Source of the DNA: an uncultured beta proteobacterium
GTDB lineage: Bacteria > Pseudomonadota > Gammaproteobacteria > Burkholderiales > Burkholderiaceae_C
Reading direction: 5' to 3'
DNA: 45,804 nt
Assembly (NCBI GenBank): GCA_903929815.1
Contig: CAIYWD010000103.1
Span: 1-45,804 of the forward strand
A program made the translations under genes and the position numbers. Shown here in pieces: positions 9,500 to 32,218 of this stretch. Each line of letters begins with the position of its first letter. Position 1 is the first letter of the stretch. The notes beneath the pieces are model-generated. The model saw only the letters and a program-made list of their open reading frames with translations, was not told the origin of the DNA and did no database searches.

Positions 9500-10612
9500 A
9501 TGAATTCTTTCAACACCCTACATCCCATGTCGTCTGATTCTTCATTGACAAATGTCCTGCCCCTCACCGAGCCACGTCTGACCAGTCTGTCGCATGGCGG
9601 GGGGTGTGGCTGCAAAATTGCACCGGGCGTGTTGTCCGAGATTTTGCGTGGAACGTGTGCCATGCCTGTGCCACCGCAGTTGCTCGTAGGCATTGAAACT
9701 TCAGACGATGCGGCGGTGTATCAGCTCAATGACGAGCAAGCCTTGATTGCCACCACAGACTTCTTTATGCCTATTGTGGATGACCCTTTTGATTTTGGTC
9801 GTATCGCTGCAACCAATGCCATTTCGGATGTTTATGCCATGGGGGGTACTCCCATCATGGCTCTGGCCTTGGTCGGTATGCCCACCCAGGTGCTGTCCAT
9901 CGCCACCATTGGCAAAATTCTGGAAGGGGGTGCTTGTATGTGCCGATTGGCCGGTATTCCCATTGCGGGCGGACACACCATTGATTCGGTAGAACCCATT
10001 TACGGTTTGGTGGTGCTGGGGTTGGTACACCCCGATCGTGTCAAGCGCAATGCCAGCGCACGTTTGGGCGACCGACTGATTTTGGGCAAGCCTTTAGGTA
10101 TAGGCATTTTGTCTGCCGCCTTGAAAAAAAACAAGCTCGATGCCACGGCTTACGCCCAAATGATTGCGGTCACAACCCAGCTCAATACGCCAGGCCCACG
10201 TCTGGCAGCGCTTGAGGGTGTACATGCCATGACCGATGTCACGGGCTTTGGCTTGGCAGGTCATGCACTTGAGATGGCACGCGCAGCCCACTGCACCCTG
10301 CACCTGGACTGGCCAAAAGTGCCTGTGCTGGAAGGTGTGCGTGCATGGGTGCAGCAGGGTTGCATCACGGGTGCATCTGGCCGTAATTGGGCGGCTTATG
10401 GTCACGAGGTCAGCCTGCCATCGGGCTTTGATGCCTGCGATCAGGCACTGCTCAGTGACCCCCAAACCAGTGGTGGCTTGTTGGTCAGTTGTTCGGCGCA
10501 GTCGGCGCAGGCTGTCATGGCGGTGTTTCGGGATTGCGGTTTTGAGCATGTCGCCGATATTGGCGTCGTCTTGGCGTTAGAAGGCCAAACTCGGCTGGTG
10601 TTGCATGTTTGA
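9500..10612 (+). CDS. selD: Selenide, water dikinase SelD
   Basis: Makes selenophosphate from selenide and ATP, the selenium donor for selenocysteine and for 2-selenouridine in tRNA. The 370-aa protein has the catalytic motif GGGCGCKIAPGVL with Cys36 and Lys39, here cysteine rather than selenocysteine. It also has ATTDFFMPIVDDP, NAISDVYAMGGTPIMAL and the C-terminal LLSDPQTSGGLLV, all diagnostic of SelD. The start is uncertain: ATG at 9500 or ATG at 9527, neither with a strong ribosome-binding site. No selA, selB, tRNA-Sec or selU/mnmH gene lies in this window, so which selenium pathway it feeds cannot be told here. glnS follows 46 bp downstream. Confidence 0.93.
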   Translation: MNSFNTLHPMSSDSSLTNVLPLTEPRLTSLSHGGGCGCKIAPGVLSEILRGTCAMPVPPQLLVGIETSDDAAVYQLNDEQALIATTDFFMPIVDDPFDFGRIAATNAISDVYAMGGTPIMALALVGMPTQVLSIATIGKILEGGACMCRLAGIPIAGGHTIDSVEPIYGLVVLGLVHPDRVKRNASARLGDRLILGKPLGIGILSAALKKNKLDATAYAQMIAVTTQLNTPGPRLAALEGVHAMTDVTGFGLAGHALEMARAAHCTLHLDWPKVPVLEGVRAWVQQGCITGASGRNWAAYGHEVSLPSGFDACDQALLSDPQTSGGLLVSCSAQSAQAVMAVFRDCGFEHVADIGVVLALEGQTRLVLHV

Positions 10613-10658
10613 GCATCCATGTATAAATTGCAATTGAACCAACTCTAAAATCAGGGCA

Positions 10659-12485
10659 ATGAATTCACCACGCCCCCATACTTTGTCATCCCCTGATATT
10701 AAAAGCTCACCTGAGACTCCCAAAGTCAGTCATTTTTTACGTCAGGTGATTGAATCCGACCTTGCAAATGGCACTTATGCAAAGCGCCGTTGGGCAGGTA
10801 CACCCGGAGACGCTTCCCACCACGAAATGGGGCTGCCAGACCCTGCCAAAATAAGAACGCGCTTTCCCCCTGAACCCAATGGTTACCTTCATATTGGTCA
10901 CGCCAAAAGTATTTGCCTGAATTTTGGTCTCGCACAAGACTATGCAGGTGTGTGCCATTTGCGTTTTGACGATACCAACCCCGAAAAAGAAGATACCGAG
11001 TATGTTGACAGCATCATTGATGCCGTGCGTTGGCTGGGTTTTGACTGGAACAGCGATACGACTTGCCATTTGTATCACGCCAGTGATTATTTTGACTTCA
11101 TGTACCGCGCTGCACACTACTTGATCAGGGAAGGTTATGCGTATGTGGATGATCAGAGTTTTGAGCAAATGCGCATCAACCGTGGCGACTTCAACACGCA
11201 CGGCATCAATAGCCCTTACCGGCAACGCACACCCGCAGAAAACCAACATCTTTTTGAGCAAATGAGAGTTGGACGGTATAACGATGGTGCTAGGGTCTTG
11301 CGGGCAAAAATTGACATGGCTAGCCCCAACATCAACCTTCGTGACCCCGTCATTTACCGCATCAAACACGCAAAGCACCACATCACGGGCGATCGTTGGT
11401 GTATTTACCCTATGTACACCTTTGCGCATCCCATTGAAGATGCACTGGAAAACATCACACACAGCATCTGCACGCTGGAGTTTGAAGACCAGCGCCCGTT
11501 TTATGACTGGTTGATGGAACGACTGCTGGAAGGTGGGTTGATCAACGCCCCTGCACCCCGTCAATATGAGTTTGCCCGTTTGAATCTGACCTATGTGGTG
11601 ACCAGCAAACGAAAACTCGCGCAGCTTGTGTCTCAAGGCCATGTACAGGGATGGGATGACCCCCGTATGCCTACCCTTGTGGGCTTGCGTCGCAGAGGTT
11701 ACACACCCGAGAGTTTGCAACTTTTTTCAGATCGCGTTGGTGTTTCCAAAAGCGACAGTTGGATTAATGACAAAACGCTTGAAGGCTGCCTGCGTGAAAC
11801 CCTTGACAAAACAGCACCGCGTGCCATGGCGGTGCTTGATCCTGTCAAACTGGTGATTGACAATTGGGATGATGTGATGGGGAAAGATGTTCTGGATCAT
11901 TGCAGTGCGCCTTTGCACCCGCAGCGCCCTGATCTGGGGCAGCGCTCTTTCAAAATGGGCAAAGAAATCTGGATTGATCGCAGCGATTATCAGGAAAACG
12001 CCCCCAAAGGCTTTTTCAGATTGTTTCCAGGTAACCAGGTACGACTGAAATATGGTCACGTGATTGAATGCACGGGCGCTACTCAAGATGCCTTGGGTCA
12101 TATTTGTTGCATCAACGCCCAACTGGTGCCAGATACCAAAAGTGGAACACCCGGCAGCAACATCATCAAGGTCAAAGGTGTCGTCACTTGGGTTTCTGTG
12201 GCTGATGGCATCCCCGCTGAAGTCAGACTGTATGACAGACTTTTCACAGTGGCCCAGCCTGACGCAGGCGGGAAAGATTTTCTGGAATACATCAATTCCA
12301 ACAGTCTGAAAGTGGTCACCGCCATTCTTGAACCCTCATTGGCCACAGCTCACGGAGACGATAAGTTTCAGTTTGAGCGGCACGGCTATTTTGTTGCCGA
12401 CCGAGTAGATCACACCAGGGAAAAACCCGTTTTTAACCTGGCTGTTGGCTTGAAAGAGGGTTGGAGTGCAGCCATTTCCACATAA
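10659..12485 (+). CDS. glnS: Glutaminyl-tRNA synthetase GlnS
   Basis: Class I aminoacyl-tRNA synthetase that charges tRNA-Gln (608 aa). The N-terminal catalytic core has FPPEPNGYLHIGHAKSICLN with the HIGH signature near residue 75 and RFDDTNPEKEDTEYVDSI. The KMSKS-type loop reads VTSKRKLAQLV. The C-terminal anticodon-binding barrels follow (KGFFRLFPGNQVRLKYG). The protein is somewhat longer than the E. coli enzyme (554 aa), mainly through an N-terminal extension of about 50 residues. It belongs to the plus-strand run selD-glnS-exporter. Confidence 0.96.
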   Translation: MNSPRPHTLSSPDIKSSPETPKVSHFLRQVIESDLANGTYAKRRWAGTPGDASHHEMGLPDPAKIRTRFPPEPNGYLHIGHAKSICLNFGLAQDYAGVCHLRFDDTNPEKEDTEYVDSIIDAVRWLGFDWNSDTTCHLYHASDYFDFMYRAAHYLIREGYAYVDDQSFEQMRINRGDFNTHGINSPYRQRTPAENQHLFEQMRVGRYNDGARVLRAKIDMASPNINLRDPVIYRIKHAKHHITGDRWCIYPMYTFAHPIEDALENITHSICTLEFEDQRPFYDWLMERLLEGGLINAPAPRQYEFARLNLTYVVTSKRKLAQLVSQGHVQGWDDPRMPTLVGLRRRGYTPESLQLFSDRVGVSKSDSWINDKTLEGCLRETLDKTAPRAMAVLDPVKLVIDNWDDVMGKDVLDHCSAPLHPQRPDLGQRSFKMGKEIWIDRSDYQENAPKGFFRLFPGNQVRLKYGHVIECTGATQDALGHICCINAQLVPDTKSGTPGSNIIKVKGVVTWVSVADGIPAEVRLYDRLFTVAQPDAGGKDFLEYINSNSLKVVTAILEPSLATAHGDDKFQFERHGYFVADRVDHTREKPVFNLAVGLKEGWSAAIST

Positions 12486-22413: not shown

Positions 22414-22665
22414 CCAAATAACGGTGTTTACCTGCTGCTGAAGTTTCAGTCTTCCATCGACAAAGCCATGCCAGTGCGAATGATGCAATACGTGGCGGCA
22501 CTCTATGACCATCTGGTGCGCGGCAAGGTCATTGACCTGGCCGACGGTTTGTCCCCTGTGCTGCCCATTGTGATTTACAACGGCGATGCGCGCTGGCGGC
22601 ACAGCCCTGAAGTGTTTTTATCGTTCCCACGCAGGAGCGTGGGAACGATACAAATATGCGGGTGA
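22414..22665 (+). pseudogene. Rpn/transposase_31-type nuclease fragment
   Basis: The frame reads GVYLLLKFQSSIDKAMPVRM, MQYVAALYDHLVRGKV, then SPVLPIVIYNGDARWR. These are typical of the Rpn family (PD-(D/E)XK recombination-promoting nucleases, formerly putative transposases). There is no start or N-terminal third, and the 3' end is replaced by the GTTCCCACGC palindrome at 22621, which is read as SFPRRSVGTIQ. Truncated at both ends and not functional. Confidence 0.7.
22621..22651. repeat. GTTCCCACGC palindrome
   Basis: TCGTTCCCACGCAGGAGCGT continues to GGGAACGATACAA. It is nearly identical to the copies at 21898 and 32161. It truncates the Rpn-type fragment and is followed 24 bp later by the end of brnA. 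Confidence 0.85.
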
Positions 22666-23310: not shown

Positions 23311-23340
23311 ATCGTTCCCACGCTCTTGCGTGGGAACGAT
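23311..23340. repeat. GTTCCCACGC palindrome upstream of brnT
   Basis: ATCGTTCCCACGC and GCGTGGGAACGAT pair around TCTT. This copy has CTCTT in place of CAGGA in its loop. It lies between the divergent brnT and barrel-protein genes. The surrounding 23258-23538 holds no ORF that I support. Confidence 0.85.
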
Positions 23341-23538: not shown

Positions 23539-24372
23539 ATGAAAATTAAAATTTCTTGTGCCCTGATGGCTATTGCTGGTTTGTTGGGGGGGGGGGCGTT
23601 TGCTGAGGACAGTGCCCCCAGTGGGGATAACCTTAAAGTTACCTTGGGGTTAAAGGCGTGGGATAATAAATGGACAAGCGCCGCTAAGGCGTATAGTGGG
23701 GCTATTATTGCAATACCAACCAGCGAGGAACTTCCTTTACTTCCTTTAGTGTCAGTCAAATGGAAAAACTGGTCCATCTCAGCAAGTTCCTATACCAAAA
23801 CAACACACAAAGCACCATCGTACCCTGACCAAGTTTATGTTCCTAGTAAAATTGCAGCTAACGTAAATTACATGGAGACACCAATAGACCGTGAAGAGTA
23901 TGACATTTCTGTAGGCTATGATGTTTTACCAGGCTTAACAGTGAGCTTGGGGTATAAAAATGTAAAACAAACATTTAATACTGCGTACCAAATAACAGCA
24001 TGTGATGCGGCTGTTGGAAGTGGTTACGACTGTCCTAGTTTGCAAAACGGTGTACAACGGGATACAGACACTGCCACCTATACAAGCACTATCCTTGGTG
24101 TGCAGGGTAGTTCGTTGCTTGGAGATACCAAATTTTTTGTATATGGCAATGCGTCAATGTCAATTGATGGTTCTTGGAAATTTGAATCATCAGACGGCTT
24201 ATCAATTCAACATAATGGCGATTACACAAGTACCGAATTTGGGCTTGGGTATCTCTTGTCCAAAAATATGGTGCTGACGTTGGGGAAAAAGCACCAGGTT
24301 ATTGATGACAAGTCAATGGGCTCGGCTGATGTCACCTCGGGTTTTATTGCCGGTATCAGTTATACCTTTTAA
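23539..24372 (+). CDS. Outer-membrane beta-barrel protein with poly-G tract in its signal peptide
   Basis: A 277-aa exported protein, family not recognised. The start at 23539 follows GGAGACGGT, and a signal peptide ends GGGAFA before EDSAPSG. The mature part alternates polar and hydrophobic residues in strand-like runs (DNLKVTLGLKAW, WSISASSYTKTT, YDISVGYDVLPGLTVSLGY) and ends ISYTF, with the C-terminal Phe typical of BAM-assembled barrels. Eleven consecutive Gs (23586-23596) encode the LGGGA of the signal peptide. A gain or loss of one G would frameshift the protein, so expression could be phase-variable. A Rho-independent terminator follows. It lies upstream of the caspase-like gene in the same direction and may belong to the same surface locus. 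Confidence 0.75.
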   Translation: MKIKISCALMAIAGLLGGGAFAEDSAPSGDNLKVTLGLKAWDNKWTSAAKAYSGAIIAIPTSEELPLLPLVSVKWKNWSISASSYTKTTHKAPSYPDQVYVPSKIAANVNYMETPIDREEYDISVGYDVLPGLTVSLGYKNVKQTFNTAYQITACDAAVGSGYDCPSLQNGVQRDTDTATYTSTILGVQGSSLLGDTKFFVYGNASMSIDGSWKFESSDGLSIQHNGDYTSTEFGLGYLLSKNMVLTLGKKHQVIDDKSMGSADVTSGFIAGISYTF

Positions 24373-24436
24373 CTTATTTTTATAATAATAACAACACAGT
24401 CCACAGATTTCAAGATCATGTGTTGCTGGAAAAACC

Positions 24437-24475
24437 AAGGCCGCGCACCCTCTGGGTGTTTGCGGCCTTTATTAT
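24437..24475 (+). terminator. Rho-independent terminator after the barrel gene
   Basis: AAGGCCGC (24437-24444) pairs with GCGGCCTT (24462-24469). Inside, CACCC pairs with GGGTG, and TTTATTATT follows. It separates the barrel gene from the caspase-like gene, which starts 28 bp later. Confidence 0.8.
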
Positions 24476-24502
24476 TGGGGTAAAGACAAAGGTCATTGAG
24501 AT

Positions 24503-25909
24503 ATGAAACGCATGGTGTTTATCTTGATGATGGTATTGATGCTGGCACTGACAGCCCAGGCGGGTTCGCGTGTCAAGTCCCGTAATGCACCAACACGCAG
24601 TACGTCAGACGATTCTGCACAAAGAATTGCGCTGGTGATTGGCAATGCCAGTTACAAAAAAATGCCTTTGCCCAACCCTGTGAATGACGCGCGTGACATG
24701 GCGGCCAAGCTTGAAGAGCTGGGGTTTGAGGTGATTAAATACGAAAATCTTCGCACTTTGGAGATGGGCAAAGCCCTGCGGAAGTTTCGTGAGCGTATTC
24801 AACCGGGTGCTGTTGCCATCTTCTTTTATGCAGGTCATGGTCTGCAATTGAAAGGGGTGAACTACCTTCCGACAGTTGATAACGAAATTTCAGGGGAAGA
24901 CGATGTTTCAGTGCAAAGTCTGGATGTCAACAAAATTTTTGCCCTGATGGAAGAAGCCAAAACGCGGCTCAATCTGGTTTTTCTGGATGCTTGCCGCAAC
25001 AATCCCTACACACGCAGTTTTCGGTCGATGGAAGGCGGTTTGGCCAAAGTCACTGCCCCGTCAGGCACACTGATTTCTTTTGCAACACGCCCAGGGTCAA
25101 CAGCCAGCGATGGTGATGGTAGAAATGGCCTTTACACCCAAAATCTGCTGGCCGCAATGGATATGCCCAATTTACCCATTGAACAAATGCTCAAACAGGT
25201 CGTGCGTGGTGTCAAGGAAGGTTCAGGTGGTGCGCAGGAACCCTGGAGCGAGGGCAGCATCGAAGGTGATTTTTATTTTCGGGGTGGCGCACAGTCCTCG
25301 GGCGAAGATGTGGAAAGAACTTTGTGGGCATCCATCAAGGATTCCCCCATCATCGCCCCCTTTGACGCCTACCTGACCCACTACCCCAACGGCCTTTTTG
25401 TTCAGCAGGCCAAAGAGGCCAAGGTCAGAATCTTGACGCAGCAAGCTGAAGAAGCCAAAGCCAGACTCACGATTCAGCAAGCAGAAGAGGCCAGAGCCAG
25501 ACTTGTGATTCAACAAGCGGATGAAGCCAGAGCCAGACTCGTGATTCAACAGGCTGAAGAGGTCAAGGCCAGAGTTGTGATTCAACAAGCCGAAGAAGCC
25601 AAAGCCCGACTGGCCACTCAGCCCGCCGAAGAGGCCAAACCCGCAGAGGGGACGTCTTTATGGGACAGATTTATAAAAAAAATAGCGCCCAATCCCAAAC
25701 CCAATCCCGATCCCAATTCCGCAGAGCAAGCGCCTCAAGATTCACAAGCATACCAAGCAGAATTAAAAAAACTGGCCGAAGAAAGAGAGAAACTGGCTAA
25801 AGAAAGAAAAGCATTGGAAGAACGCCAAAATGAAATCACTACATCCAAGGAGAAGGGCAATGGCAACACATCCAGAAAATCCACCATCTACATTCCGGCA
25901 TCGTTTTAG
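24503..25909 (+). CDS. Secreted caspase-like (C14) protein with 12-residue repeats
   Basis: A 468-aa exported protein. A signal peptide (about 1-21, ending AQAGS) precedes a caspase/metacaspase-like domain (about 40-260). That domain has RIALVIGNASYKKMPLPNPV, catalytic His112 in FFYAGHG and Cys164 in FLDACRNNPY. The end of the domain reads PWSEGSIEGDFYFR. Residues about 305-380 are six 12-residue units of the QQAEEAKARLxI type, probably a long helix or coiled coil. A Pro/Asn-rich link and a charged coiled coil follow, and the protein ends IYIPASF. Caspase-like proteins of this sort often occur beside CsgG- or DUF4384-type proteins. Substrate unknown. It overlaps the next gene by 50 bp. Confidence 0.85.
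   Translation: MKRMVFILMMVLMLALTAQAGSRVKSRNAPTRSTSDDSAQRIALVIGNASYKKMPLPNPVNDARDMAAKLEELGFEVIKYENLRTLEMGKALRKFRERIQPGAVAIFFYAGHGLQLKGVNYLPTVDNEISGEDDVSVQSLDVNKIFALMEEAKTRLNLVFLDACRNNPYTRSFRSMEGGLAKVTAPSGTLISFATRPGSTASDGDGRNGLYTQNLLAAMDMPNLPIEQMLKQVVRGVKEGSGGAQEPWSEGSIEGDFYFRGGAQSSGEDVERTLWASIKDSPIIAPFDAYLTHYPNGLFVQQAKEAKVRILTQQAEEAKARLTIQQAEEARARLVIQQADEARARLVIQQAEEVKARVVIQQAEEAKARLATQPAEEAKPAEGTSLWDRFIKKIAPNPKPNPDPNSAEQAPQDSQAYQAELKKLAEEREKLAKERKALEERQNEITTSKEKGNGNTSRKSTIYIPASF
25413..25640 (+). repeat. Six tandem 36-bp units in the caspase-like gene
   Basis: Units of 36 bp encode QQAEEAKARLxI-type dodecapeptides. Several neighbours are nearly identical at DNA level (for example GCCAGACTCGTGATTCAACA), so unequal recombination could change the copy number. 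It is coding and in frame, not a CRISPR array. Confidence 0.85.
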
Positions 25910-26261
25910 AGCCGCAGCCATGGTTCGCGCGCTGTGCATGGCCTGCACGGTCTTGACGCTGTCGTCTTGCGCCGACCTGCGCTACCGCGAGTGGGAACAA
26001 TCTGCCCGATCAAAGGCAGAGCAGGGTCAAATGCAGTGGTCAGAGTATTACCGAGGGTGCTTTACCCGTCTGGTCGATGCACCCTACGGCAGGGTGCCCG
26101 AGATGGAGTTGTGCAACACCTTGATTGATTACGCCATGGCGTTGGAAGGCGGCAAAATGAGCGCATCCGAGTTTGACATCAAAAGACGCCAGGCCCAACT
26201 GGACTATGCACGGCGCAAGGATGCCGCAGGCACAAACGTTTTTGTACCGGCTTCTTTTTGA
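25860..26261 (+). CDS. Small lipoprotein ending in PASF
   Basis: A 133-aa protein, family not recognised. From the ATG at 25860, with AAGGAG 12 bp upstream, it has a basic N-terminus, a hydrophobic stretch and a lipobox TLSSC. A shorter start at 25920 is possible. The mature part is charged, with four further Cys residues or fewer, and reads YREWEQSARSKAEQGQMQWS and SEFDIKRRQAQLDYARRKD. The C-terminus FVPASF matches the IPASF end of the caspase-like protein whose gene overlaps it by 50 bp. The overlap and shared tail suggest that they work together. It converges on the QIQGNT-repeat genes. Confidence 0.75.
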   Translation: MATHPENPPSTFRHRFRAAAMVRALCMACTVLTLSSCADLRYREWEQSARSKAEQGQMQWSEYYRGCFTRLVDAPYGRVPEMELCNTLIDYAMALEGGKMSASEFDIKRRQAQLDYARRKDAAGTNVFVPASF

Positions 26262-26278
26262 ATCGGCAAGGATATTTG

Positions 26279-26325
26279 CTATTAAAGCAATAGCTACCAA
26301 CGCTTATTCCATGCGCCTTAGAGGG
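26279..26325. repeat. TAGCTAC-type repeat in a convergent gap
   Basis: CAATAGCTACCAACGCTTAT followed by TCCATGCGCCTTAGAGG is the complement of the copy at 19224-19266. It lies between the lipoprotein gene and the terminator at 26376. Confidence 0.65.
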
Positions 26326-26375
26326 TGTTTTCATGCACCATGTTTCATAAACAAAGTGGCAATCATTTCAAACAA

Positions 26376-26401
26376 AAAACCGCCATTCGGCGGTTTTTTT
26401 A
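26376..26401. terminator. Bidirectional rho-independent terminator
   Basis: AAAAAACCGCC and GGCGGTTTTTTT flank ATTC, giving a short GC stem with an A-run on one side and a T-run on the other. It lies between the convergent lipoprotein gene and the first QIQGNT-repeat gene and can serve both strands. Confidence 0.9.
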
Positions 26402-26416
26402 GTGAGTCAAGAGAGC

Positions 26417-26755
26417 TTACTTGCCTTCAATCACCCCGGCCTCGTTGGCAGCTTTGTTGTGCTTGCCTACTGCCACAGCGGTTGTTTTCTTTTGTTTGGC
26501 TTTGACGGTTGTATTGCCTTGAATTTGAACGCCACTTTTAACCGTGCCTGCGGCATTTTGGGCTGTGTTTCCCACACCGGCAGCCACAGCGGCAGCCTCT
26601 TCCTGAGTCGCCTTGATGTCTGTGTTGCCTTGAATTTGAACGCCCTTGTCGTTGGACGAGCCCATGGCGCCTTGCCGAGTGGCTTGGGACGTTTGTGCCA
26701 GTACAGTCAATGACGAAAAAGCACAAAGGGTTGCGATGAAAAGTTTAGCCTTCAT
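26417..26755 (-). CDS. Secreted curlin-like repeat protein (two QIQGNT units)
   Basis: A 112-aa protein starting at 26755, with GGAG 7 bp upstream. The signal peptide ends VLAQTS. The mature part is essentially two 37-residue units: GVQIQGNTDIKATQEEAAAV continuing to AQNAAG, and GVQIQGNTTVKAKQKKTTAV continuing to AANEAG. The unit pattern QIQGNTxIxAxQxxxTAxAxGxxNxAxNxxG resembles curlin repeats in its spaced Gln, Gly, Asn and Ala, although it is not the classical sequence. Such units can stack as amyloid-type beta-solenoids. It is the last gene before the terminator and has a close paralogue just upstream. Secretion by the CsgG-like protein at 30344 is inferred. Confidence 0.75.
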   Translation of the reverse strand: MKAKLFIATLCAFSSLTVLAQTSQATRQGAMGSSNDKGVQIQGNTDIKATQEEAAAVAAGVGNTAQNAAGTVKSGVQIQGNTTVKAKQKKTTAVAVGKHNKAANEAGVIEGK

Positions 26756-26782
26756 ATAAAACTCCATAAAAAAATATAAAAA

Positions 26783-27106
26783 TTACTGACCACCTATAAC
26801 GCCAACTTCGTTGGAAGCCTTGTTATCCTTACCTTCAGCCACTGCAGTTGCATTCTTTTGTGAGGCTGTGATTTTGGTATTACCCTGAATTTGAGTATCC
26901 CCCTTAATGGCGCCCGCCATATTGGTGGCAGTATTGCCCTTGCCGACAGCAATGGCCGTTGTATTTTCCTGTTCGGCCTTGATTTCGGTATTGCCCTGAA
27001 TTTGAACGCCCTGGGCATTACTGGAACGTTGCGCATTTTGTGCAAAAGCCGGAAAAGCTGAAACAGCCATGATGGCAGATGCCATGAATAAAGAAACAAA
27101 TCGCAT
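26783..27106 (-). CDS. Secreted curlin-like repeat protein (two QIQGNT units)
   Basis: A 107-aa protein starting at 27106, preceded by AGGAG. The signal peptide ends PAFAQNAQ. Two repeat units follow: GVQIQGNTEIKAEQENTTAI continuing AVGKGNTATNMAG, and TQIQGNTKITASQKNATAVA continuing EGKDNKASNEVG. It is the closest paralogue of the 26417 protein, and the tandem genes probably arose by duplication. The two could be major and minor fibre subunits, which is inference. The mature part has no Cys and little Trp, as in many curlins. Confidence 0.75.
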   Translation of the reverse strand: MRFVSLFMASAIMAVSAFPAFAQNAQRSSNAQGVQIQGNTEIKAEQENTTAIAVGKGNTATNMAGAIKGDTQIQGNTKITASQKNATAVAEGKDNKASNEVGVIGGQ

Positions 27107-27135
27107 ATCTATTCTCCTGGGTTAAATAAACGTCA

Positions 27136-27732
27136 TTATCCGACGACCTTGAATACCACACGACGGTTTTTTGGGTCTTGTGGAGCGAGGTTCTTGAGGG
27201 TGTCTGTAGAGCCTTTGCCGATAGGAACCAATCGACGGTGTTCAAGCCCCATTTTTTCGACCATAAATTCAACAACAGCGTCAGCGCGATGGCGCGATAA
27301 AGTCATATTCCTATCTGCATTACCCGATACATCGGTATGCCCCTCAACAATAACGCAGTGATCAGGAGATATAGCCAGTATTTTGGCAATTTGTCGCAAC
27401 AAGGGCTGTGAAGAAGGTGCAATATCCGCACTGCCTACCTTGAATTGAACGACAAAATCAACGGCAACAGAATTAACATCGGGTGGTAATGCAGCGCAGT
27501 CTGCAATATTGACTGGTTTGGAATCAACACCGTCACCGGGTGCAAGTGGTTCATTGTCAAACACAATAGCCCTTGACTGATGCGGCTTTTTACCAGTGGA
27601 AGTGGGGGTACTCATGGCTTTTTCAAGCGCCTTGAATTTGGCTTCGTCGCTCTTGTCAAAAGCTGAAACACTGCCCACTGCAAGCAGCGCAAAGATGACG
27701 GCAGCATCCATCCAACCCGTTCTGTAGTTCAT
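27136..27732 (-). CDS. OmpA-like C-terminal domain protein
   Basis: A 198-aa exported protein starting at 27732, with GAGGAAA upstream. The signal sequence ends SVSAFDK. A variable segment (about 30-90) precedes an OmpA/MotB-type peptidoglycan-binding domain: VQFKVGSADIAPSSQPLLRQ, VIVEGHTDVSGNADRNMTLS and RHRADAVVEFMVEKMG, ending RRVVFKVVG. Two Cys residues (ADCAAL and DHCVI) may form a disulphide. It sits between the repeat-protein genes in one minus-strand run and could anchor the assembly to peptidoglycan. CsgG and OmpA-like genes do co-occur in surface-fibre loci, but the link here is inferred from position. Confidence 0.85.
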   Translation of the reverse strand: MNYRTGWMDAAVIFALLAVGSVSAFDKSDEAKFKALEKAMSTPTSTGKKPHQSRAIVFDNEPLAPGDGVDSKPVNIADCAALPPDVNSVAVDFVVQFKVGSADIAPSSQPLLRQIAKILAISPDHCVIVEGHTDVSGNADRNMTLSRHRADAVVEFMVEKMGLEHRRLVPIGKGSTDTLKNLAPQDPKNRRVVFKVVG

Positions 27733-27740
27733 AATTTTCC

Positions 27741-28055
27741 TCACTTGCAAACGTTGATAACCTCTTTGGTCGTCACGACAACATCTTTCGGGGCTTTTTG
27801 TCCCTTTTGCGTTGTGCCAACATTGACCACACAATTTCCAGATTTTTGACTGCCGATATTCACGACACTTTTGTTCTGTTGGGCTTGGTAGCCATCCTGA
27901 CTGGTGTCTGTTTGAGACCATTTTTTGGCCATGGCCTTGCCCACCTTGCTTTGCCCGTGTGCGTCCAGATTTTGATAAGCAAAACAAGAGCCTGCCACCC
28001 ACACCATGGCAGAAATTAACACCAGGCATTTACCCAAGAATTTATTTGCATTCAT
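27741..28055 (-). CDS. Small exported protein ending NVCK
   Basis: A 104-aa protein, family not recognised. The ATG at 28055 overlaps the end of the preceding gene by 14 bp. The signal peptide ends CFAYQNL. The middle is polar (KAMAKKWSQTDTSQDGYQAQ). The C-terminal half has strand-like NKSVVNIGSQKSGNCVVNVG and DVVVTTKEVINVCK. Two Cys residues could pair in the periplasm. The SVVNIG/CVVNVG pair is a short internal repeat. Tight spacing to both neighbours indicates the same operon; an accessory or minor-subunit role is a guess. Confidence 0.7.
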   Translation of the reverse strand: MNANKFLGKCLVLISAMVWVAGSCFAYQNLDAHGQSKVGKAMAKKWSQTDTSQDGYQAQQNKSVVNIGSQKSGNCVVNVGTTQKGQKAPKDVVVTTKEVINVCK

Positions 28056-28350
28056 CGCTGACAATGCTCCCAATATTTGTACAAGCCTTTTTGTTACGAC
28101 CGCCCACCACGGTGGTGACGTTGGTCGCGCTGATATTGATTTTAGTATTTCCTTTCTTTGACCCTTGCACGACACCAATACGATTTCGGGCCACGGTATT
28201 TTGACCTGTGGCAATGGCTGTCGTATTTTCGGTGACTACATTAATTTCAGTATTGCCTTTGATTTGACTCTGACTTGTTTGAGCAAAAGCGCTGGCATGA
28301 ATCATGACCAGCATATAAAAAACCAGTTGATATGGACGACCATGATTCAT
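28042..28350 (-). CDS. Divergent secreted curlin-like repeat protein ending DECK
   Basis: A 102-aa protein starting at 28350, with GGGAG upstream. The signal peptide ends ASAFAQTS. Two diverged repeat units follow: QIKGNTEINVVTENTTAIAT continuing NTVARNRIG, and KKGNTKINISATNVTTVVGG continuing RNKKACTNIG. The GNTxI and NxA positions are kept, but the second unit gains Cys, and the protein ends in DECK, like the NVCK end of the next gene product. I take it for a minor, disulphide-stabilised subunit or a nucleator. It overlaps the 104-aa gene by 14 bp. Confidence 0.72.
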   Translation of the reverse strand: MNHGRPYQLVFYMLVMIHASAFAQTSQSQIKGNTEINVVTENTTAIATGQNTVARNRIGVVQGSKKGNTKINISATNVTTVVGGRNKKACTNIGSIVSDECK

Positions 28351-28368
28351 CGGAATACTCCCTTAAAA

Positions 28369-29262
28369 TTACTGTAGTGGCAGTTGAGTGGGTGGTTTGC
28401 CTTGACGAAACATCATTCGCATGGATTGCAAGTTGTCTTCACTCACCCCCAATTTTTTGGCATTGAACGAATGTGAGTCAGGTGTAAACATCAAATAGGC
28501 TTGCATTTCATTGACCAGCAAATCACCAGAAGTCACATCATAGTTGTATTTTTTGAAAAACTGAATAAAAGAATGTCGTTGACCATCATTGAGTGATGTT
28601 TTCCAGAAATGACGACAGTAGTTGGCATAATAAGGATTGGTATAGTATTCGCCATGCGAAATTTCATGCAGCAAAATGGTACGACGGGCTAATTCAGTCA
28701 CCACAGGTTCATTTTCTCGCTGCGGTTGCTCTTGTGGTATGGATAACACCACAATGTCAGGTTGCAAGGTTTGGTAAAAGCCACGCCATAATTTTATAAA
28801 ACCTTGTTGAAGCAGAAAATCCCGCAAAACAATTTCTTCAGGAAATAATTCTATTTTGTCACGGTCTGCAAAATTGTAAAACTGAACCAACTCGCTCACC
28901 AACACATCATGTCCAAACGCAAAATCAGCCTGTGTTCGCCTTAACGATACCAGATACTGGGCAAAGGCTGTGTTTGACATAACAACAGGATAGCCATTGC
29001 GTTGCTGAACCTGCTCAATAAACTGGGTGATGCGGTTGAACGTGTTGCCTTGGTGGGTCAAACTTGGAAAATCAAAAATAAATAATTTTGGATTGTCAAA
29101 AAACTTCCAGACGACCAGTGTCTTGCTTTGGGCATTCAAAATGGTTTCAAAATTGCCAGATGCCACATTCAGGCTCCAGGCTGCACAGGGACTCAAAAAA
29201 AGAATCACCATAAACCAGGATGTGACTCGTTTCAGATTCAACGCAAATATAAATTTTGACAT
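28369..29262 (-). CDS. Exported HEXXH metallopeptidase-like protein
   Basis: A 297-aa protein. The start at 29262 (MSKFIFALNL) has AAGG upstream; the longer frame is only translated repeat sequence. An N-terminal hydrophobic signal ends near PCAAWS. The zinc-site motif LLHEISHGEYY gives His199, Glu200 and His203. NEMQAYLMFTPD has Glu252, a possible third ligand. Between them, YYANYCRHFWKTSLNDGQRH is distinctive. I do not recognise a named family. It lies 18 bp upstream of the repeat-protein genes and may process or release surface subunits; that role is inference. Confidence 0.72.
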   Translation of the reverse strand: MSKFIFALNLKRVTSWFMVILFLSPCAAWSLNVASGNFETILNAQSKTLVVWKFFDNPKLFIFDFPSLTHQGNTFNRITQFIEQVQQRNGYPVVMSNTAFAQYLVSLRRTQADFAFGHDVLVSELVQFYNFADRDKIELFPEEIVLRDFLLQQGFIKLWRGFYQTLQPDIVVLSIPQEQPQRENEPVVTELARRTILLHEISHGEYYTNPYYANYCRHFWKTSLNDGQRHSFIQFFKKYNYDVTSGDLLVNEMQAYLMFTPDSHSFNAKKLGVSEDNLQSMRMMFRQGKPPTQLPLQ

Positions 29263-29307
29263 TTCATGACCTTGTTTGTAAATTTCAAGTCTATAGCTTG
29301 ACCCTAC

Positions 29308-29479
29308 GTAACCGTTTAGATACCCTACCACCGTCATTCCCGCGAAGGCGGGAATCCAGACAGTCTTTTTATTCTGAAAACCCCAAATGCACTGGATTCC
29401 CGCCTTCGCGGGAATGACGACAGCTTGTGACCTTCGCAAAAATCACAGTGTTTCACAGGGGGGGGGTCTAAACAGTTAC
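29308..29479. mobile_element. MITE with GTAACCGTTTAGA termini and 8-bp target duplication
   Basis: The left end GTAACCGTTTAGA (29308-29320) and right end TCTAAACAGTTAC (29467-29479) are inverted repeats. GACCCTAC flanks both sides (29300-29307 and 29480-29487), a perfect 8-bp duplication. Inside are two inverted copies of the 20-mer ATTCCCGCGAAGGCGGGAAT and a G-run of 9 or more. There is no ORF. GTAA ends and 8-bp duplications match what is known of IS66-family elements, so IS66-type transposition of a non-autonomous unit is likely. Confidence 0.8.
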
Positions 29480-29487
29480 GACCCTAC

Positions 29488-29654
29488 CCTTAGGATATGG
29501 TCAACAGTAAGTTCCGCATTTGGCCGTTAAAGTTGGGGTGCAATGCTAGGCGCAAATCGTGCGGTGTGGCACAGCCACATAAGCGATTTGTAACGACGCA
29601 GTGCGCCCAAATCTGACGAGCCAAATGCGGAACTTATTATTGACCATATCCTTA
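29488..29654. mobile_element. MITE with TAAGGATATGGTCAA termini (full copy)
   Basis: The left end TTAGGATATGGTCAACAGTA continues to AGTTCCGCATTTGGC. The right end is its inverse, ending GACCATATCCTTA. These make inverted repeats of about 35 bp around a 100-bp non-coding core. The same unit, inverted and lacking one end, is at 35459-35595. It separates the metallopeptidase gene from the upstream genes of the cluster, directly beside the GTAACCG element. Confidence 0.8.
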
Positions 29655-29659
29655 CTGTC

Positions 29660-30313
29660 TTACTGTTCCTGAACGCTGATATTGTCATGTTTTCCCCAAT
29701 GAATCAAATATGTTTTCTGGGTGGTGGGGGATGTATAAATCGTTTGTCCGTTTGGAACCTGTTTGCCATCCACATAGACTTGACCGTTGAGAACGGCAAC
29801 ACCACTCGTATGTTCAACGGGTACCGTTGTTCCCCATTTCACAGTAGTTCTCACCTTATGGCCTGATGCAGATGTGCCGTTCAAATAGTGATGCGCTCGA
29901 TTCAGGTTTCTTTCCACATTTTTCCGGGGGGAGTCAGACCTGGGTATCACTTGACCGGGTACACGCGGTAGGGTGCTTTTGATGTCATCTGAATGGGTTT
30001 TATCCAAATAATTCTGTGCTTTCGTCCGGTTATCCGGTAGTATTCCCCAACCGGGTCTGGAGAATAGGCCATTTTCTTCCCAAGGTTCAAGCTCAGAAGG
30101 TGCCACCCAAGGACGATCCCCTTCATCAAGATGCGACCTGGCTTTGTTGATATTGTGGGATGCCTCAGCACTGTTGTTGACGGTTTTGCCTGAAGGGGTC
30201 AGAATAATCTCTCCGGCCAACAAGATACCCTCACTTAGCGAAGTATCGTCAGCGCGTGCGATGCACAGATGTGTTGCACACAGCACCCCTATCCATAGCG
30301 TGATGAGTTTCAT
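29660..30313 (-). CDS. Exported protein with three N-x-A-x-x-Y/H-L repeats, unknown family
   Basis: A 217-aa protein starting at 30313, with AAAGG 8 bp upstream. The signal peptide ends CIARADD. The central part has three spaced helical units: INKARSHLDEGDRPWV, RTKAQNYLDKTHSDDI and LNRAHHYLNGTSASGH. Each is preceded by a Pro/Ser-rich link. The C-terminal block VAVLNGQVYVDGKQVPNGQT continues to TQKTYLIHWGKHDN, probably a small beta domain. I know no named family. It lies 30 bp downstream of the CsgG-like gene and is probably co-transcribed with it. A CsgE/CsgF-like accessory role is possible but unsupported by similarity. Confidence 0.7.
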   Translation of the reverse strand: MKLITLWIGVLCATHLCIARADDTSLSEGILLAGEIILTPSGKTVNNSAEASHNINKARSHLDEGDRPWVAPSELEPWEENGLFSRPGWGILPDNRTKAQNYLDKTHSDDIKSTLPRVPGQVIPRSDSPRKNVERNLNRAHHYLNGTSASGHKVRTTVKWGTTVPVEHTSGVAVLNGQVYVDGKQVPNGQTIYTSPTTQKTYLIHWGKHDNISVQEQ

Positions 30314-30343
30314 CAACGACCTTTGAAAAGGATATGACCTGAT

Positions 30344-31984
30344 TTACTGGACAGAAATATCAACCATGCTGGTGGTCAGCTCTGGATTGCTTGTCTTGAA
30401 TTGCCCCATTAATTCATCAAGTGAATGAACCGGCAGTGGACTTAAATCTTTACGTCCTGCCAAACCCGAGGGGAAAATAAGTTCACGGTCAGAGCCAACG
30501 CAGGCCACCCGTTCACGTCCCCGTTTGTCAAACCTGATCTTGAAACCGCCTGTGGGCAGAGGGATTTGGAAATTGCCAGACAACTGGGAATTGCTAAAGA
30601 ATCGATTGGGAAAAATACGCACCGTATTGCGATCGGTGTCTTCATAAAAACATGATGCAAATCCAGATTTGTTCACCGACATTTGCAAATTGAGAAAATC
30701 ACCCACTTTGTAAGTGGGACGGCCACCCTTGTCACTCATCAAATGAATGGCAAAAGGCGACGGGGATGCAGTCTTGAACTCAGGCACAGCAGTGACCGGC
30801 ATGGGGGGCATGGTCACTGCCACCATGTTCGGCGCGGCTGCAGGCGGTGAGAGGGGAAGAGCCGCCAGTTCATTTTGAGTGTCGTCTTTCAGGTTGAAAT
30901 ACAGATCAAAATTAACCCTTCCATCCGCAATCAGACCCACATAAGCCTGGTATTCGGCGATGGCGCTTTTGAGATCGTCATTCATCAGACCGTCCAGGGT
31001 GCCTTTGTAGCGTTTCATGCCTGCAAGTTTACGCTGAATGAACAAAACACGCTCTTTGTCAGATGCCACGTCATACCACTCGCGCACCTGATCCAGAAGT
31101 TCGGGGTTGGTGGATTCAATGTCAAGACATTTCCAGTAGGGCACCCGCGTAAATTTGCCTAAAACCTCAATCAAACCCAGTTCAATCAAGGTTCTGTAAG
31201 CTGCCCCCAACCCTTCTGTTCGGCTTAAATCCTTGTTGAAATTCAGCCCCATTTTGATGACTTTTCCACCGGCTTCGCCTGATCTGCCACTGTTGGTGAT
31301 GATCATGGTATTGGATGTGTTGGTTTCAGGAAGAATGCGCCGTGTGGCGGCATCTCCCACGCTCATATCGACACTGATCAAATTGAAGGATTGCTCTTTG
31401 GCGTAACCTATGTCCAAAAATGGCAATGCCAGGCCTGCGCCTTTACTTTCACGCACCGCGTTATCGTCAAGCTGGGTGACTGCCCCTCGAATGTAATAGT
31501 CTGGAATTTTGGTATTGCCCTTGCCTTTGAGTTCAAACAGCGTGACCAGGTCGTTTTCTCCAAATGTACCTGCGGTCAAATCGATGAATTCAAAGGCATT
31601 GCTCTTCATGGTCATTTTGGACAAGGCCGAGATCATCATTTCTTTGTCGCCCGCTTTTGCCTTGCCGGTGTTATCAGGAATGCCTGCCGATGTGATCACA
31701 ATGCCCCGTTTGCCATTGGACAAAAATAACTCGTCCATACAGCGCAAGGCCTGCGTGAAGTTGGTGATGGTTTTGACAGCAGGTGTTTTGGGTGCCGCCC
31801 CCACTCTGGCGCGGGTTGTTTTTTCTTCAGTCTCGCGAACTCCGGCAGCTCTTTCGTGGCTGGGGGTCACACCGTTGGTAAAAAAATTATCGTTGCTCTC
31901 AGCCTGCACCTGGGGCATAAACATCAGCGCCACAAGGATGGCGCTGCGCTGAAAAATGGACTGGAAAAGTGTGTGATGAGACAT
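30344..31984 (-). CDS. CsgG-like secretion protein with peptidoglycan-binding-like and DUF4384 domains
   Basis: A 546-aa exported protein starting at 31984 (MSHHTLFQ) with a signal peptide ending PQVQAES; a TTG at 32005 is the alternative. Residues about 75-290 look CsgG-like: RGIVITSAGIPDNTGKAKAG, IRGAVTQLDDNAVRESKGAG, ISVDMSVGDAATRRILPETN and AAYRTLIELGLIEVLGKF. CsgG forms the outer-membrane channel for curli subunits. Residues about 310-365 resemble a peptidoglycan-binding repeat (GTLDGLMNDDLKSAIAEYQA). Residues about 425-520 resemble DUF4384 (YKVGDFLNLQMSVNKSGFAS, VRIFPNRFF). No lipobox Cys is seen, unlike classical CsgG. This is the best evidence for a secretion system handling the downstream small proteins. 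Confidence 0.8.
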   Translation of the reverse strand: MSHHTLFQSIFQRSAILVALMFMPQVQAESNDNFFTNGVTPSHERAAGVRETEEKTTRARVGAAPKTPAVKTITNFTQALRCMDELFLSNGKRGIVITSAGIPDNTGKAKAGDKEMMISALSKMTMKSNAFEFIDLTAGTFGENDLVTLFELKGKGNTKIPDYYIRGAVTQLDDNAVRESKGAGLALPFLDIGYAKEQSFNLISVDMSVGDAATRRILPETNTSNTMIITNSGRSGEAGGKVIKMGLNFNKDLSRTEGLGAAYRTLIELGLIEVLGKFTRVPYWKCLDIESTNPELLDQVREWYDVASDKERVLFIQRKLAGMKRYKGTLDGLMNDDLKSAIAEYQAYVGLIADGRVNFDLYFNLKDDTQNELAALPLSPPAAAPNMVAVTMPPMPVTAVPEFKTASPSPFAIHLMSDKGGRPTYKVGDFLNLQMSVNKSGFASCFYEDTDRNTVRIFPNRFFSNSQLSGNFQIPLPTGGFKIRFDKRGRERVACVGSDRELIFPSGLAGRKDLSPLPVHSLDELMGQFKTSNPELTTSMVDISVQ

Positions 31985-32218
31985 GGACAACACCCAAATT
32001 TGCAAAGGTCGTCATGTTATCAGCTTCAAATGGTGTGGGTAGTGGGACGGGCGCGATTGGGTGCGTTTCAAAGTGATGCGGTGTCTGGCATGTCTGACCT
32101 AAGTTACAAAAATCATAGCACTCTACGCAAGTGGGACGGGCGTTAGAGGCCTATGTTTTATCGTTCCCACGCAGGAGCGTGGGAACGATACAACTGTTCG
32201 AGCGTTGATACGCCTAGG
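31985..32218. repeat. Intergenic gap with a GTTCCCACGC palindrome (32161-32190)
   Basis: The gap before ccmH on the plus-strand map contains one copy of the TCGTTCCCACGCAGGAGCGT palindrome, identical to that at 22621. No ORF was supported. The promoter of the CsgG-like gene should lie here, reading leftward, but no clear box was found. Confidence 0.75.

Follow-up and report, generated by a model that had tools for sequence, protein, structure and literature searches.

A conserved eight-gene operon of an uncultured betaproteobacterium: a probable CsgG/HfaB-type export system for 37-residue repeat proteins with its own putative metallopeptidase

Does a bacterial gene cluster that combines a CsgG-like protein with small repeat proteins encode a relative of the curli export system, and which of its genes belong together? 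The question is raised by a 45,804-nucleotide stretch of DNA from an uncultured beta proteobacterium (contig CAIYWD010000103.1, assembly GCA_903929815.1), referred to below, at its full length, as the window. The original prediction, made from the sequence, was of a curli-like secretion locus holding a CsgG-like/DUF4384 protein, three small proteins of curlin-like repeats, an OmpA-like anchor, two protease-like proteins, a lipoprotein and an outer-membrane barrel. Here we report that eight minus-strand genes at window positions 26417-31984 are a conserved operon, transcribed in the order CsgGL (the CsgG-like protein), H218, HEXXH, R3, NEW, OmpA, R2 and R1. We infer, with a probability of roughly 0.6, an outer-membrane export system of CsgG/HfaB type that would carry 37-residue beta-repeat proteins to form fibres, and that has a putative metallopeptidase of its own to serve it.

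The argument begins with CsgGL. Pfam recognises DUF4384 (43.3 bits) and PG_binding_1 (27.4 bits) in this protein, both above the cut-offs, and the match to the CsgG model is sub-threshold (15.0 bits, cut-off 20.8); that model has no match anywhere in the window's genome. Among 38 homologues (hand-picked for spread, as were the other alignments, of 22, 21 and 47 rows), DUF4384 is matched at E <= 0.1 by all 38, PG_binding_1 by 31 and CsgG by 12. The CsgG relationship, as first proposed, emerges from profile comparison. With hhalign, the 38-row CsgGL profile aligned to Escherichia coli CsgG at E = 1.3e-7 across 240 columns. None of 17 controls, made up of six further csg proteins, ten shuffled CsgG sequences and a reversed one, did better than E = 0.016. 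A two-sequence CsgG profile reached 7.1e-9 against CsgGL. A profile of nine open reading frames (ORFs) taken from hits to the HfaB model, four of them above the model cut-off and two (in loci L152 and L158) probably wrong ORFs, reached 1.6e-15; none of five column-shuffled controls did better than 0.29. Individually, seven of these ORFs aligned to CsgGL at E values from 2e-6 to 8e-12 and those of L152 and L158 gave no alignment; the ORFs of L149, L154, L155 and L156 aligned better than E. coli CsgG does, whereas those of L151 and L153, both above the HfaB cut-off, aligned worse. On the NCBIfam HfaB equivalog model, CsgGL scores 16.0 against a cut-off of 300. Because both CsgG and HfaB align significantly, CsgGL belongs, by sequence comparison, to the CsgG/HfaB group, with the scores of the two branches overlapping so that neither can be called the nearer.

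Structure prediction, which could have failed to return the CsgG fold, returned it. The AlphaFold2 model of CsgGL (mean predicted local distance difference test score, pLDDT, 78.6) contains two long beta-hairpins, with strands predicted at residues 163-186/190-211 and 223-242/245-255, and the 25 best PDB hits of this model in Foldseek are all CsgG chains (E values from 4e-11 to 6e-6). Weaker matches are to FlgT, HpaA, GNA1162 and PelC; LpoB is matched by one of the 38 homologues. These computations show a predicted fold of CsgG type, to which peptidoglycan-binding and DUF4384 domains are joined.

That the genes keep company in other genomes, as the original prediction expected, was found by comparing loci. 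A scan of named genomes kept the best 80 of 132 relatives, and family profiles were run over 100 loci, among which four genomes are counted twice (L032/L086, L036/L120, L037/L099 and L041/L126). A CsgGL gene is present in 37 core loci, in 30 of which the sequence extends 5.5 kb or more past it; 28 of these 30 carry all five partner families tested (H218, HEXXH and NEW in 28 each, R3 and OmpA in 29 each). The OmpA-like anchor gene, whose Pfam score is given in Table 1, keeps the place first proposed for it. One locus, L084, is without H218, HEXXH and NEW. Several are split into two divergent units yet complete (L032/L086, which are one genome, L034, L081 and L083), and L082 looks similarly split, its contig stopping before the HEXXH position. 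CsgGL travels with the repeat proteins, NEW, OmpA, H218 and HEXXH.

The gene set recurs in strains and metagenome-assembled genomes (MAGs) named Sulfurimicrobium, Rhodoferax, Gallionella, Sulfuritalea, Propionivibrio, Azonexus, Accumulibacter, Giesbergeria and Rhodocyclus. Two more MAGs with the set bear the labels Deltaproteobacteria and Desulfobulbaceae. In the host's order, scanned with at most three CsgGL and at most five HEXXH candidates scored per genome, CsgGL is matched in 23 of 399 genomes, the host's own included, five of the matches being weak (E values from 1e-9 to 1e-3). Within the host genus, 33 of 35 other genomes have no CsgGL match and two are matched at 30% identity. HEXXH is absent from L087-L130, 44 named loci that are more distant, and NEW, OmpA or R is matched in 28 of them, in many cases weakly; in a genome represented by L035, HEXXH, OmpA and a caspase stand near a CsgGL of 33% identity. 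A tree of CsgGL proteins puts the window in one group of 7 rows (support 100/100) together with two uncultured betaproteobacteria, Sulfurimicrobium, a Rhodoferax MAG and both deltaproteobacterial MAGs. This grouping, together with the rarity of the gene in the host genus, suggests horizontal transfer of the operon, binning errors in the MAGs being a possible further source of the pattern.

In HEXXH, residues H197, E198 and H201 and the distal E250 are invariant in 30 of 30 homologues, these being all 29 HEXXH matches of loci L051-L130 and the window. Pfam returned scattered weak matches over the family, among them M90 (E = 0.05) and M91 (E = 0.16) in one member each, NCBIfam returned none, and matches in the PDB were at chance level. 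We regard HEXXH as a putative gluzincin-like metallopeptidase of what appears to be a new family. Its profile occurs in five of the 399 genomes of the host's order, all five among the 23 with a CsgGL match, which supports it as a true member of the operon.

The repeats of the three small proteins, also foreseen, are real: the periods are 37 residues in R1 and R2 and 35 in R3, none of 500 shuffles reached any of them, and 95 of the 98 R proteins measured (one of 99 was skipped) have a period of 34-38. Their description as curlin-like did not hold in terms of homology, the curlin models of Pfam matching none of 21 R proteins. Searches of NEW and R with NCBIfam, and of R with Pfam, gave scattered matches and no common family (Fap models in these libraries were unchecked), the best being TetR_C_45 in two of the 21 R proteins at 1.8e-5. 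Comparison of R, NEW and HEXXH with CsgA, CsgB, CsgC, CsgE and CsgF by hhalign stayed at noise level. The predicted model of R2 has an overall pLDDT of 80.1 and a predicted template modelling score (pTM) of 0.58, with block means of 83-96 in the repeats and three strands per repeat. Cysteine is among the last three residues in 32 of the 88 R proteins listed, and NEW has an invariant cysteine near its C-terminal end. Judged by these sequence searches, the candidate cargo family and the putative peptidase family of the operon are new.

How, then, does the operon compare with known systems? It resembles curli in that CsgGL has the predicted CsgG fold and that the repeat proteins are its likely cargo. 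It differs in its partners: curli uses curlin, CsgE and CsgF, whereas the operon has OmpA and HExxH proteins instead, and the absence of the classical components, noted at the outset, extends to 33 operon-carrying genomes (probably 32 distinct ones), in none of which curlin (PF07012), CsgE (PF10627) or CsgF (PF10614) was matched. The HfaABD system of Caulobacter is likewise similar, through the CsgG-type domain of HfaB and its significant profile match to CsgGL, and a passage of one report has the display of HfaA and HfaD requiring HfaB (PMC6707917). Unlike HfaB, CsgGL carries additional peptidoglycan-binding and DUF4384 domains, its loop is shorter, at 14 residues against 21-22, and its partners are others, among them a putative metallopeptidase. 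Since CsgGL is related to both CsgG and HfaB, 'curli-like' names one of two analogies. The Fap system of Pseudomonas, described in part of a recent update as having imperfect beta-repeats and a secretion dependent on the cysteine protease FapD (PMC12822426), would have in common with the operon repeats of this general kind and a dedicated protease, and FapC is the top, non-significant match of R2. However, Fap has a trimeric FapF barrel and a cysteine protease where the operon has a CsgG-type and an HExxH protein, and none of the ten window proteins scanned (NEW not among them) has a Pfam match to a FapD-type protease, a family that we take to be of C39 type.

On the reading that we prefer, CsgGL would oligomerise into a pore that passes R1-R3, and these would build a fibre or coat at the cell surface by stacking their 37-residue beta-repeats. 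Through their cysteine-containing ends, R3 and NEW might cap, nucleate or anchor this structure, and the OmpA protein and the peptidoglycan-binding domain of CsgGL would hold the complex to the wall. The HExxH protein may be a peptidase of the periplasm, maturing components or clearing them, and so comparable in role to FapD. By its membership the operon is not curli; most likely its mode of action is that of curli or of a holdfast anchor.

Several observations weigh against this interpretation. The model of CsgGL has a pTM of 0.54, and the return strand of its second hairpin (residues 245-254) has a pLDDT below 50. The R proteins are without sequence homology to CsgA or CsgB by hhalign, and against PDB sequences they gave chance-level matches, FapC not among them; the best Foldseek matches of the R2 model, to FapC twice and to the CsgA fibril, are non-significant (E values of 0.13-0.33, probability 0.06-0.08), so that the predicted likeness to these two is suggestive but not significant. 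No CsgE- or CsgC-like chaperone was recognised. One core locus, L053, has a CsgGL gene (9950-11626) and an adjacent gene of 223 residues, yet its 21.6 kb contain no member of the five partner families.

The departures of CsgGL from CsgG count on the same side. A 12-residue alignment gap in CsgGL stands opposite the CsgG segment KPYPASNFSTAV, which presumably contains the constriction residues Y51, N55 and F56. The constriction loop of CsgG is thus missing in CsgGL, while it is of full length in a second CsgG, that of L133, and so in both CsgG sequences aligned. Measured between flanking motifs, the span comes to 14 residues in CsgGL, to 21-22 in three HfaB relatives (three of the eight tried matched the pattern, as did none of three other CsgG loci) and to 26 in E. 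coli CsgG; across the 38 CsgGL homologues it is 14 in 29 and longer, from an earlier start, in four, with five unmatched. A review describes a highly conserved loop as narrowing the CsgG pore to 1.2 nm (PMC4389571). Because this loop is missing, the pore is predicted to be wider or differently gated. The window CsgGL also lacks a lipobox, because its first cysteine does not come before residue 82, and a crude motif scan found no lipobox in 26 of 38 core loci as against a lipobox in 56 of 61 distant loci, some positives being doubtful because the start codons are uncertain. The N-terminal anchor is described elsewhere as indispensable to the insertion of CsgG (PMC13397529).

Among other explanations, the one that survives best, though we think it unlikely, is a holdfast-like anchor, in which the pore would display R and NEW as a surface complex tethering exopolysaccharide, as HfaABD does with the holdfast, and no fibres would form. 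It draws on the profile of HfaB-model hits and on the four single ORFs that outdo E. coli CsgG, as well as on the shortness of R1-R3, with two repeats each. The ranking of HfaB over CsgG is not firm, however, given the two poorer and two unaligned ORFs and the E value of the CsgG profile, and the equivalog score is far from its cut-off. Nor do NEW and R resemble four ORFs that stand beside HfaB-model hits (these ORFs, and not authentic HfaA or HfaD, were compared), and none of the neighbour families present in at least five core loci looks, by eye, like polysaccharide synthesis.

We consider it quite improbable that CsgGL is no export pore at all but a periplasmic scaffold of the CsgG/FlgT/PelC/LpoB fold group, bound to the wall through its peptidoglycan-binding domain. 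The missing lipobox and constriction loop would fit such a role, as would the weaker matches to FlgT, HpaA, GNA1162, PelC and LpoB and the partly low-confidence second hairpin, but the long strands are predicted, CsgG ranks above all other folds, and most distant relatives do have a lipobox.

The caspase-like gene calls for separate treatment. Of the two protease-like genes first reported as additions to the locus, the HExxH gene proves to be a member of the operon and the caspase gene a recurrent neighbour that is not fixed in it. The window caspase is clearly of its family (Pfam Peptidase_C14, 139.7 bits), with an intact His/Cys dyad in the motifs YAGHG and LDAC. Caspase genes occur in 11 of 29 core loci, where 0.86 would be expected from genome-wide counts (P = 1.3e-10 if independent, which overstates the association because the loci are related); the observed caspases come from our own profile and the expected numbers from Pfam, and the 29 loci were picked after those holding a caspase were known. 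In the list from which the 29 were taken, loci L087 and later had been chosen for showing a caspase, and they were excluded from this test. Seven core loci outside it (L052, L053, L064, L071, L080, L082 and L084) have no caspase at E < 1e-60, which brings the count to 11 of 36. At least two caspase subfamilies are found near core loci, and the window caspase shares 23-26% identity with the commonest neighbour type and 34-51% with others. In the window, in L059 and in L085, caspase and R genes are convergent. The window's genome has a second pair of barrel and caspase genes on another contig (C170), where 14 kb of sequence contained none of the operon genes. In some cyanobacterial orthocaspases DUF4384 is an accessory domain, according to parts of two papers (PMC8283722, PMC7475262). 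The barrel and the lipoprotein, which had been listed as members of the locus, are rejected as such: phmmer (E <= 1e-5) matched neither to any ORF in 100 related loci, and a search of 59 further genomes yielded no match to the barrel, its own genome a single additional one, the paralogue beside the second caspase. We place all three outside the conserved core, the caspase as an over-represented neighbour. A system centred on the caspase, in which it would act jointly with barrel, lipoprotein and operon in, for example, surface-layer processing or release or a death response, finds some encouragement in the enrichment, the convergent arrangement and the orthocaspase domain, but is very unlikely in view of the 18 of 29 core loci with no caspase in the sequence available, the seven further loci without one, the low identity to the commonest type, the operon-free second pair and the overstated P value.

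Some features of these neighbours deserve mention in their own right. A similar tail, [YF][IV]P..F, ends both caspases and the lipoprotein (window 25889-25906 and 26241-26258; L161:5756-5773); the pattern, chosen post hoc, fits three of 7081 ORFs of at least 90 residues in the sequence examined. The C-terminal part of the window caspase (25401-25642) has a 12-residue repeat with a 36-base period. A caspase of SDSC type lies near a common family of 214-296 residues in L034, L055, L057, L058, L059, L076, L081, L083 and L085, and in seven of these nine loci a further family of 361-515 residues is nearby. In L060 (3813-9713) a caspase domain is found inside an ORF of 1966 residues, whose start resembles what we take to be a filamentous-haemagglutinin-type exoprotein.

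The features of the locus are collected in Table 1. All named ORFs of the original prediction are present at the same or close coordinates; its gene list was incomplete, having missed NEW, which lies between R3 and OmpA.

Table 1. Genes of the operon and its convergent neighbours (window positions; operon genes in order of transcription).
Gene	Position	Strand	Description
CsgGL	30344..31984	-	CsgG/HfaB-type, 546 aa, C-terminal PG_binding_1 and DUF4384 (Pfam, hhalign, AlphaFold2, Foldseek)
H218	29660..30313	-	Putative exported protein; halves match two adjacent genes in relatives
HEXXH	28369..29262	-	297 aa, putative exported zinc metallopeptidase, no known family matched
R3	28042..28350	-	Repeat protein, 35-residue period, C-terminal Cys-Lys
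NEW	27741..28055	-	104 aa, small putative exported protein, two invariant Cys, ends NVCK
OmpA-domain protein	27136..27744	-	Putative peptidoglycan anchor, start codon assumed; Pfam OmpA 62.6 bits
R2	26783..27106	-	Repeat protein, two 37-residue repeats, predicted all-beta
R1	26417..26755	-	Repeat protein, two 37-residue repeats
OMP	23539..24372	+	Putative outer-membrane barrel; pairs with caspase gene, not with operon
Peptidase_C14 caspase-like protein	24503..25909	+	Convergent neighbour, recurrent but not obligate
LP	25920..26261	+	Small putative lipoprotein, 3' of caspase gene; start codon assumed

The export signals of all locus proteins were judged by eye. R3 and NEW overlap by 14 bases and NEW and OmpA by 4, provided that the first start is correct. 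A gap of about 400 bases between H218 and HEXXH contains inverted repeats, one of which (29492-29652) has arms of 55 nucleotides that are 80% complementary; H218 itself looks as if fusion or deletion had produced it from two genes that are separate in relatives. Promoter and terminator scans were uninformative (14 and 15 sites, with 12.1 and 11.7 expected). On the opposite strand, the barrel, caspase-like and lipoprotein genes occupy 23539-26261, and the genes beyond CsgGL look like what we assume to be cytochrome c maturation genes. A 30-base palindrome at 22620-22649, 23311-23340 and 32160-32189 has 8 sites in the 2.6-Mb assembly, and its last two copies in the window flank the entire 23.5-32.0 kb cluster. 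It is present in only two of 161 loci, both belonging to the window, and is possibly a boundary or a repetitive extragenic palindromic (REP)-like element.

What the operon means for the study of surface proteins follows in part from how such systems have been sought. Functional-amyloid surveys start from curlin or Fap repeats: a 2025 update, in the part concerned, counted CsgA/B repeat homologues only where another curli gene lay nearby (PMC12822426), and a passage of a 2023 survey reports the use of earlier CsgA models (PMC10192328). Such surveys should miss this operon, because none of the 33 carrier genomes gives a match to the curlin model. A 2012 survey, in the section concerned, regarded its extra CsgG hits as probably paralogues of a larger family (PMC3521004). 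In the open-licence PMC literature we found no paper combining CsgG with DUF4384 or with Accumulibacter, and a search on caspase and curli terms gave no CsgG or curli among the matches listed.

A dedicated metallopeptidase raises the question of processing, and a pore without a constriction loop would test the role of that loop. We would go further only tentatively, at slightly under even odds, in proposing a distinct class of CsgG-type export, with a loop-less pore, often no lipid anchor, a fusion to peptidoglycan-binding and DUF4384 domains, its own non-curlin 37-residue beta-repeat cargo, its own metallopeptidase family and Cys-ended caps. This would be a surface-fibre system common to Accumulibacter, Azonexus, Rhodocyclus, Gallionella, Giesbergeria and others that has moved between distant lineages and that curli surveys built on CsgA/B repeats cannot see. 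The carriers include Candidatus Accumulibacter and related sludge and freshwater bacteria, in which biofilm-matrix protein matters; probably, a gene cluster present in many bacteria of water and sludge exports small repetitive proteins through a curli-type outer-membrane pore.

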